From Azotosporobacter soli (GTDB taxonomy: Bacteria; Bacillota; Negativicutes; SG130): a DNA stretch of 64,000 nucleotides. The DNA is taken from positions 1 through 64,000 of the forward strand of contig NZ_JAUAOA010000020.1 in NCBI RefSeq assembly GCF_030542965.1. Direction: 5' to 3'. The notes below the pieces were generated by a model, which was not told the origin of the DNA, did no database searches, and was given only the letters and a program-made list of their open reading frames with translations. Below are positions 226 to 49,914 of this stretch, piece by piece. Both the position numbers and the translations under genes were made by a program. Position 1 is the stretch's first letter; the number at the start of each line of letters is the position of its first letter.

Positions 226-341
226 TCCGGTGATGATGGCTGTGGGGTCCCACCTGTTCCCATACCGAACACAGCAGTTAAGCCCACATACGCCGAAAGT
301 ACTTGGCTGGAAGCGGCCTGGGAGGATAGGGAGTTGCCGGT
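226..341 (+). rRNA. rrf: 5S ribosomal RNA
   Basis: The sequence has the standard 5S layout: a closing helix made by CCGG at both ends, the conserved CCCATACCGAACACAG block in loop B/C (about 260-275), and GGGAGGATAGGGA-type sequence near the 3' end. Length, about 116 nt, is normal. A strong terminator follows directly, so this is the last gene of an rRNA operon whose 16S and 23S genes lie before the window. The ends are placed from helix I pairing and may be off by a few bases. Confidence 0.93.
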
Positions 342-342
342 T

Positions 343-21822: not shown

Positions 21823-21840
21823 ACGGCTTGTGAGTCGGCT

Positions 21841-21931
21841 GGCAATTCCTACGCTGGCATAATCCAGATCAGGTATAAGGGTCATGCACTTAGCGGTGCA
21901 TTTCTCAGCCGGCGATACCGGCTCCCCTTGC
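21841..21931 (-). promoter_or_regulatory. TPP riboswitch controlling thiM-thiW
   Basis: On the minus strand the THI-box core is intact: GGGGAGCC, GGCTGAGA, ACCCTTATACCTGATCTGG and GCCAGCGTAGGAA. The terminator just downstream indicates transcriptional attenuation when thiamine pyrophosphate binds. Confidence 0.97.
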
Positions 21932-22013
21932 CCATATTTAATTGTCTTAATCATAAAGCAGGCGGCGTAAAATTGCAACCGTACTTTACGCGGCAGGGAT
22001 CGATTGAAAGAGA

Positions 22014-47867: not shown

Positions 47868-48239
47868 TTATTTTTTCAGATCGGTCGGGTCGAGGATGGC
47901 GATGTCGCCTTCTTCGCCGGTGCGGATGCGGACCGCGTTTTCAATCGGGTAGACGAAGATCTTGCCGTCGCCGACCTTGCCGGTGCGGCAGACGCGCTTT
48001 ACCGTGCTTACGACTTTTTCCACCGGTACCTCGCAGACGACGATTTCAATCTTGACGCCGGGCAGGAGGTTGATGTTGTACTCCTTGCCGCGATAGACTT
48101 CGGTGTGACCTTTTTGCAAACCGCAGCCGAAGATCTGGCTGACCGTCATGCCAGTTACGCCGATCGTGTTCAGTTCTTCTTTCAATTCCTCAAGCTTACC
48201 GGGACGAGTGATGATATCGATCTTGGTCATTTTTTGCAT
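47868..48239 (-). CDS. glnK: Nitrogen regulatory protein P-II
   Basis: The 123-residue PII protein shows VTGMTVSQIFGCGLQKGH, a T-loop with VYRGKEYNINLLPGVKIEIVV (the tyrosine in EY is the usual modification site), and RTGKVGDGKIFVYPIENAVRIRTGE. It senses 2-oxoglutarate and ATP/ADP and blocks AmtB when nitrogen is plentiful. It follows amtB by 15 bp in the usual amtB-glnK order and shares the ANTAR-type leader. Confidence 0.95.
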   Translation of the reverse strand: MQKMTKIDIITRPGKLEELKEELNTIGVTGMTVSQIFGCGLQKGHTEVYRGKEYNINLLPGVKIEIVVCEVPVEKVVSTVKRVCRTGKVGDGKIFVYPIENAVRIRTGEEGDIAILDPTDLKK

Positions 48240-48254: not shown

Positions 48255-49697
48255 CTATTTGTAGCCGAGCTTTAAGTCGGCGGTGGCGACGGCAGGTGAA
48301 GATTCAAGCGAGGAAAACGGCAAAGCGATTTGCGAACCGATGCTGAGATCCTGATAGGCATAACCGCGTTCACCGTGTTCGACGATGTCAAGACCTTCGG
48401 CTTCGTCAGACGGATCGACGCGCAATTGCATGACCAGGCTGATTGCTTTTAAGATGACCAAAGTTGCAACTGCGGCAAAAGCCCAGCTGACGCCGACGCC
48501 GATCAGTTGCGTAAGAAGTTGATCGGGATTGCCGAAGAGCAGACCGTCTGCTCCGGCCGCGTTGATGTCCTTCGAGGCGAAGATGCCGGTGGCGATAGCG
48601 CCCCAGGTTCCGCCGATGCCGTGAACGCCGAATGCATCTAAGGAATCGTCATAACCGAAACGTTGTTTGATGATGCTGACGAATGCGTAGCAGATGATGC
48701 CGCCCAATGCGCCCAGAGCAATTGCGGATAAAGGACTCACATAACCGGCTGCCGGAGTGATCGCGACAAGACCGGCCACACAGCCGCTGGCTGCGCCGAG
48801 GATAGTCGGTTTGCCATGTTGCAGCCATTCGCTGACGACCCAGGAAACGGTAGCGGCTGCGGCTGCAATGTGCGTGACGATGAAGGCGTTGGCAGCCAGA
48901 CCGTTAGCGCCGAGCGCGCTGCCGGCGTTAAAGCCGAACCAGCCGAACCAGAGCAGCGATGCGCCGAGAACCGTCATCGGCAAGTGATGCGGCAACATGA
49001 CTTCGCTGCCGTAGCCTTTGCGTTTGCCGAGATAGAGTGCGACCACTAAACCGGAAACGCCGGATAAAATGTGGACAACGGTGCCGCCGGCAAAATCAAG
49101 GATGCCCATGTCGCGCAGCCAGCCGCCGGTACCCCAGACCCAATGTGCTACAGGGTCGTAAACCAAGGTTGACCAAAGCAGGACGAAAACCGCAAAGGCC
49201 GGAAAGCGCATCCGTTCGGCCAAAGAACCGCTGATCAATGCGGGTGTGATTACGGCAAACATCGCTTGGAAAATCATAAAGGCCAGATGCGGGATCGTGG
49301 CCGCGTAATCAGGATTGGCGTCCTGTCCGACGCCGGCCAGACCGAACCAGCTGAGGTTGCCGATTAAGTGATTGACGTCAGGCCCGAAGGAAAGACTGTA
49401 GCCGATTAATACCCATTGTACGGAAATAAGACCCAGGCTAAAAAAACTTTGCATCAGAGTGCTGAGAACGTTTTTGGTGCGGACCATGCCGCCATAAAAG
49501 AGAGCCAAAGCGGGCGTCATCAGCATGACTAGTGCAGCGCTGAATAAAACGAAAGCGGTGTCGCCGCTGTCAATTTTGGCTGCGACAACCGGTGCAGCGG
49601 CATCGGCCGCGTCGGATACGACTTCTTCGGCGCCTGCGACGGAGGCGAAAGAGAAAAGAACCAGGAAGAGGAGCGTTAAAACGGTAAGTTTCTTCAT
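48255..49697 (-). CDS. amtB: Ammonium transporter
   Basis: The 480-residue protein has a signal-like N-terminus (residues 1-22), then a short Ala-rich linker and eleven membrane helices with family sequences FYGGMVRTKNVLSTLMQSF, GTVVHILSGVSGLV and DAFGVHGIGGTWGAI (the last with a pore histidine). It conducts ammonium. ATG 49697 follows GAAAGGATGG; the frame extends upstream without a site. It is the first gene of amtB-glnK. Confidence 0.95.
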   Translation of the reverse strand: MKKLTVLTLLFLVLFSFASVAGAEEVVSDAADAAAPVVAAKIDSGDTAFVLFSAALVMLMTPALALFYGGMVRTKNVLSTLMQSFFSLGLISVQWVLIGYSLSFGPDVNHLIGNLSWFGLAGVGQDANPDYAATIPHLAFMIFQAMFAVITPALISGSLAERMRFPAFAVFVLLWSTLVYDPVAHWVWGTGGWLRDMGILDFAGGTVVHILSGVSGLVVALYLGKRKGYGSEVMLPHHLPMTVLGASLLWFGWFGFNAGSALGANGLAANAFIVTHIAAAAATVSWVVSEWLQHGKPTILGAASGCVAGLVAITPAAGYVSPLSAIALGALGGIICYAFVSIIKQRFGYDDSLDAFGVHGIGGTWGAIATGIFASKDINAAGADGLLFGNPDQLLTQLIGVGVSWAFAAVATLVILKAISLVMQLRVDPSDEAEGLDIVEHGERGYAYQDLSIGSQIALPFSSLESSPAVATADLKLGYK

Positions 49698-49770
49698 AAG
49701 ATAAAACCATCCTTTCATAGTGGAATATGTACGGTCTGCCATCTAATTCTTTTTCCCGCGGCTGAAAAAG

Positions 49771-49861
49771 AAAAAAATCCTTTCACGCTAAGCAGTGAAA
49801 GGACGTCATTGTCCTAAATAAACAGACAGCGCCTCCGCAAAGTGCGGAGGCGTCATTGCCT
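49771..49861 (-). promoter_or_regulatory. ANTAR-type antitermination leader of amtB-glnK
   Basis: On the minus strand two small stem-loops have the same hexaloop AATGAC: AGGC/GCCT arms (49848-49861) and AGGAC/GTCCT arms (49800-49815). The hexaloops have A at position 1 and G at position 4, the known ANTAR target signature. The second overlaps the 5' arm of a terminator (TCCTTTCAC/GTGAAAGGA, 49778-49803, with a T-run), so the two folds exclude each other. An ANTAR protein binding the pair would release transcription into amtB. Confidence 0.75.
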
Positions 49862-49884
49862 TCAATTAATGAAGTTATGGATGG

Positions 49885-49914
49885 ATTATACCAATAATGG
49901 TGTAACGTTGTCAA
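49885..49914 (-). promoter_or_regulatory. Promoter of amtB-glnK
   Basis: On the minus strand a perfect TTGACA (complement of 49909-49914) and TATAAT (complement of 49885-49890) are spaced 18 bp apart. The predicted start, about 49878, is just upstream of the ANTAR hairpins. Confidence 0.75.

Follow-up and report, generated by a model that had tools for sequence, protein, structure and literature searches.

Two predicted single-hexaloop attenuators in series in the ANTAR-type amtB-glnK leader of Azotosporobacter soli

RESULTS

The amtB leader contains two overlapping hexaloop-terminator units

We analyzed a 64,000-nucleotide stretch of the A. soli genome (the window). The ammonium transporter gene amtB lies on the minus strand (48255 to 49697; Pfam PF00909, E = 1e-132). 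Its open frame extends to 49742, and we set the start at the MKKLTV... codon, because matching MKK or MKR starts are found in class-mates. The PII signal protein gene glnK (47868 to 48239, minus strand; Pfam PF00543, E = 4e-28) is located 15 nt downstream of amtB, and the two genes presumably form one operon. Elsewhere in the window, Rfam identified a 5S ribosomal RNA gene (226 to 342, plus strand) and, above the gathering score, a TPP riboswitch aptamer (21828 to 21938, minus strand).

The minus-strand promoter upstream of amtB (49885 to 49914) matches the consensus at 12 of 12 positions. It consists of TTGACA (49914 to 49909), an 18-nt spacer with a TG, and TATAAT (49890 to 49885), and would start transcription at about 49878. 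The first hexaloop hairpin, HL1 (AGGC-AATGAC-GCCT, 49848 to 49861, minus strand), has its A1 at 49857 and its G4 at 49854. The 3' arm of HL1 doubles as the 5' arm of T1, a GC-rich terminator hairpin, CGCCTCCGCA-CTT-TGCGGAGGCG, recognized by a terminator scan and by covariation (49830 to 49852, minus strand). HL1 and T1 are therefore mutually exclusive. The U tract of T1 is weak in the A. soli genome, with 9 U in 14 nt and a longest run of 3 (the broken tract reads CTGTCTGTTTATTT). A 32-nt linker that contains most of T1 (49816 to 49847, minus strand) leads to the second hexaloop hairpin, HL2 (AGGAC-AATGAC-GTCCT, 49800 to 49815, minus strand; A1 at 49810, G4 at 49807). The arrangement is repeated here: the 3' arm of HL2 doubles as the 5' arm of the intrinsic terminator T2 (49764 to 49804, minus strand), so that HL2 and T2 exclude each other. 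The terminator scan found both the stem and the tail of T2, whose stem-loop (49804 to 49777) is followed by TTTTTTCTTTTTC. Two AATGAC hairpins between a consensus promoter and amtB, the second mutually exclusive with a terminator, had been described in the original prediction, and all of these elements are present in that place on the minus strand.

The calculated hairpin energies are -4.4 kcal/mol for HL1, -20.0 kcal/mol for T1, -5.6 kcal/mol for HL2, and -13.8 kcal/mol for T2. The leader folds with a z score of -6.1 relative to dinucleotide shuffles, and the RNA alone adopts the terminator form. We wrote a mechanical descriptor of the unit, namely a hairpin with a stem of at least 4 bp and an A1/G4 hexaloop that has its 3' arm in common with a terminator. 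In the 64-kb window it matched only HL1/T1 and HL2/T2; Markov-resampled sequence gave 0.1 units per strand and no tandem pairs in 20 replicates. A genome-wide search had been proposed for the same motif, and a single-unit covariance model (R1, seeded on amtB) returned the two amtB units of the A. soli genome (E = 2e-6 and 7e-5). We did not count the next matches (E = 0.06 and worse), which are ordinary terminators or matches in coding sequence. The genome has a second amtB paralogue, whose leader carries no unit. An Rfam scan at the gathering score, covering the amtB leader and ten further loci with units, found no family. The family IR_84 matched the plus strand with 23.9 bits at a relaxed E-value; the threshold is 51 bits, and we regard the match as chance.

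Both units are conserved in Negativicutes

AmtB relatives were drawn from 60 class-mates (Negativicutes). The order of HL1 over T1, then HL2 over T2, is repeated across many families of the class, with a loop-to-loop distance from HL1 to HL2 of 44 to 78 nt in 26 class-mate leaders. The GC hairpin that had been thought to compete with the first stem is real, conserved, and terminator-like: 7 of 10 T1 pairs have changes on both sides, and 93.5% of T1 cells are paired, versus 40 to 50% in slid controls. T1 ends with four to six U in most relatives and thus has a real U tract there. The HL1 pairs are kept at 97% in the relatives, and the hexaloop stems, HL2 included, have compensatory changes on both sides that retain the pairing.

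We then scanned 49 class amtB leaders in a way that was blind to the loop letters. The 56 hexaloop-terminator units found come from related sequences and are not 56 independent trials; G4 is present in 56 of 56, and position 1 is A in 51 and G in 5. Leaders with G at this position include L026, where both loops have it, and L028 to L030. A scan of named genomes for the exact pattern found matches upstream of AmtB in Sporomusa, Pelosinus, and Propionispira, genera that point to Negativicutes as the class of these relatives. We discarded as chance the hits from Delftia, Rhizobium, Streptomyces, Phycisphaerae, and other genomes, which either had no following terminator and AmtB or lay in ordinary coding-like sequence.

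Solo units precede many other genes of the class

The R1 model found 113 units, not all of them independent, in 38 of the 60 class-mates, and most of these units are solo. Outside the first amtB, they precede glnK alone, second amtB genes, and genes for family-5 solute-binding (peptide-binding) proteins, M20 peptidases, a uracil/xanthine permease, an SDF symporter, chemoreceptors, and a 5-oxoprolinase-type CT_C_D protein. Before these unrelated genes, the stems of the units differ while the loop letters stay constant. Units were also found before DUF3100 and DUF969 membrane protein genes (L083, L087, and L093), which suggests that these proteins are linked to nitrogen or peptide metabolism. 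The class-mate locus L100 (696 to 2135) has one unit upstream of a gene for a PdtaS-type kinase, which adjoins a second ANTAR regulator. At L103 (about 2525 to 2576), a near-palindromic unit between two amtB genes was matched on both strands; this case comes from one family.

R1 was seeded on amtB, and this seeding should not bias the sequence upstream of a unit. We looked there for a partner. A second hexaloop with A or G at position 1 and G at position 4 lies within 15 nt upstream of 1 of 62 class units (0.09 expected) versus 8 of 22 units of other Firmicutes found with the same model (Fisher p = 6e-5), where the linkers are 2 to 11 nt. With a looser definition of the partner, the counts are 2 of 62 (1.2 expected) and 5 of 22. 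A -10 element with at least 5 of 6 matches is present in 54 of the 62 class unit leaders, and the median distance from its end to the hexaloop arm is 24 nt. This leaves only about 17 transcribed nt, and therefore no room for a partner hairpin. We also searched upstream of HL1 for a hidden classical P1 and did not find one. Solo units occur in other Firmicutes as well, for example before glnK in L157.

The genome encodes a single ANTAR regulator

The absence of an ANTAR protein would have spoken against the proposed control. An ANTAR-domain search of the A. soli genome found exactly one such protein (E = 5e-20). It is a 209-aa response regulator with a receiver and an ANTAR domain (Pfam PF00072 and PF03861), and its gene is directly downstream of a PAS/HisKA_2/HATPase kinase gene and not near amtB. 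The kinase adjoins the regulator in 30 of 30 class-mate loci checked.

The regulator aligns over its full length with EutV (PDB 6wsh/6ww6; E = 5e-44). It retains EutV residues R142, K143, K149, E160, Y164, M172, and R175, of which R142, K149, E160, Y164, and M172 touch G4 or plug the loop in EutV (PMC8934654). The changed residues are K147R, R168Q, N173A, and R177S, the last three at EutV backbone contacts. Two of these three changes are class-wide, with R168 changed to Q in 29 of 30 and R177 changed to S in 28 of 30 ANTAR proteins (L001 and L032 to L061). The changes are possibly tied to the use of a single loop.

The motif tracks ANTAR genes

Among 300 class genomes, ANTAR proteins are present in 68 of the 70 that are positive with a tandem-seeded model and in 172 of the 230 others (p = 6e-6, uncorrected for phylogeny). 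The two motif-positive class genomes without ANTAR are 87 to 88% complete. In genome G018, which is 87% complete, the motif is present and an ANTAR gene was not found. Outside the class, ANTAR is present in 37 of 40 motif-positive genomes versus 5 of 12 listed motif-negative ones (p = 5e-4, again uncorrected for phylogeny). In two other Firmicutes loci, L164 and L174, a unit lies directly before a REC-ANTAR regulator gene. Both are autoregulated ANTAR-glnA loci whose hexaloops have the classical dual form, and the following unit of L174 stands upstream of glnA.

DISCUSSION

A model for two attenuators in series

The amtB-glnK leader is likely to be controlled by two serial single-hexaloop transcription attenuators that respond to the ANTAR regulator, a prediction made from its sequence and conservation. 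Without the active regulator, the stronger terminator hairpin would displace the nascent hexaloop hairpin via their common 3' arm, and RNA polymerase would halt at T1 or T2, upstream of amtB. Once phosphorylated by its partner kinase, the single REC-ANTAR regulator would bind the emerging AATGAC hexaloop through A1 and G4, hold the small hairpin, and so block the terminator. This antitermination step would take place at HL1/T1 and be repeated at HL2/T2, each hexaloop serving its own terminator. Two units in series should hold the operon off more tightly and make its response steeper. The sequences show the anatomy, the competition through common arms, the conservation and covariation, the regulator pair, and the co-distribution of motif and ANTAR. 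We infer that the regulator binds, in which direction it acts, and that each unit works independently of the other; the signal is probably nitrogen limitation. T1 may be a poor terminator in A. soli, because its U tract is weak in this genome. Since the tract is broken in the window, the larger part of the control may rest with T2 there.

The original prediction of an ANTAR-controlled leader is supported in its main point: the genome encodes an ANTAR protein, A1 and G4 are kept class-wide, and the motif tracks ANTAR. The leader departs from the textbook layout, in which one terminator follows a pair of hexaloops. Given the 32-nt linker, a terminator for each hexaloop, and the abundance of solo units in relatives, two serial attenuators with a single hexaloop each are the better description. 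We lean toward the wider view that ANTAR antitermination naturally works with one hexaloop per terminator, that the solo unit is the standard form in the class, and that amtB carries two independent units in series. Such a mechanism contradicts the only well-studied case, because EutV requires two hexaloops and a short linker.

Could HL1 and HL2 instead be one classical dual-hexaloop site with a long linker? In this scenario, HL1 would recruit the regulator and HL2 would antiterminate T2, while T1 would do no more than fold up as a spacer, or would inhibit by masking HL1. The order and the loops do fit P1 and P2 of EutV targets, the T1 U tract of A. soli is weak, and by its sequence the inner stem of T1 could fold with HL1 formed and thereby shorten the path. 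However, the 32-nt linker and the 44 to 78 nt from loop to loop in relatives exceed both the 2 to 25 nt of the published curation (PMC8164766) and the lengths that EutV tolerates. The T1 U tract is real in most relatives, and solo units stand at amtB and at many other class genes. We consider the dual site unlikely.

Two further explanations would take away the role of ANTAR or of the hexaloops themselves. The regulator gene is not near amtB, and the ANTAR-RNA link is a predicted one; the terminator pair might be read by another loop-binding protein, or might simply keep amtB expression constitutively low. This is hard to reconcile with the invariant G4 and the A or G at position 1 in all units, which are the exact EutV/NasR determinants, with the co-distribution of motif and ANTAR inside and outside the class, with units on ANTAR regulator genes, and with compensatory changes that preserve the three-way pairing. 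We regard it as improbable. The aligned cases are mostly amtB orthologues of one class, so mere inheritance of an orthologous leader, with hexaloops that have no function of their own, could be put forward too. But unrelated genes are preceded by units that differ in their stems and agree in their loop letters, and stem pairs change on both sides with pairing retained. We give this explanation almost no weight.

The present picture of ANTAR antitermination is built on EutV. If ANTAR antitermination does work with one hexaloop per terminator, the dual-hexaloop rule of EutV would be one variant and not the general mechanism. The leader and the solo units are natural, class-wide candidates for single-hexaloop antitermination, and the question can be tested directly in some genomes that have one regulator and one strong target. 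Our results also imply that genome searches for dual hairpins missed many ANTAR targets in the class, including peptide-uptake, peptidase, purine/uracil permease, and chemoreceptor genes.

Comparison with known systems

ANTAR control of PII, ammonium-transporter, and glutamine synthetase genes was predicted in 2012 (Ramesh 2012, PMC3369931). The amtB leader has its target genes and its principle in common with those nitrogen regulons; the search of that study demanded a dual hairpin, and single-hexaloop units fall outside its definition. The actinobacterial and mycobacterial ANTAR RNAs likewise have A1/G4 hexaloops recognized by ANTAR proteins; in the published curation, ANTAR RNAs are dual stem-loops with linkers of 2 to 25 nt, and these often mask a ribosome site and not a terminator (PMC8164766).

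The closest likeness is to EutV/EutW of the eut operons of Enterococcus faecalis, which also pair a REC-ANTAR regulator with a HisKA_2-type kinase and use a hairpin with an A1/G4 hexaloop that has its 3' arm in common with an intrinsic terminator. EutV antitermination needs two hexaloops joined by a short linker and is lost when this linker is lengthened (PMC3369931, PMC8934654). A single hexaloop has been proposed as the minimal EutV binding site, with both loops held to be needed for antitermination, and the authors of the EutV-RNA structure left the role of single-hexaloop sites to be determined and asked for studies of them (PMC8934654). EutV sites have two hexaloops 5 to 12 nt apart before one terminator, and the first hexaloop (P1) is terminator-free. 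In contrast, the A. soli hexaloops are 32 nt apart, beyond the range of the eut sites and of the curation, and each has its own terminator, HL1 overlapping the conserved and covarying T1; several backbone-contact residues of the regulator differ as well. The leader nonetheless has the broad features of ANTAR leaders, namely an A1/G4 hexaloop, exclusivity with a terminator, and an ANTAR protein in the genome, and the protein has the receiver domain, the ANTAR domain, and the conserved loop-contact residues of a REC-ANTAR response regulator.

A literature search, largely confined to non-subscription journals, turned up neither single-hexaloop terminators nor ANTAR leaders from the class. The layout of one loop per terminator appears to be new, and the link between ANTAR and amtB or PII was already published as a prediction. 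Tandem attenuators, such as tandem riboswitches or T-boxes, likewise put a single operon under two successive switches. The A. soli leader differs from these in that the thing sensed would be a protein and each switch would need one small hairpin.
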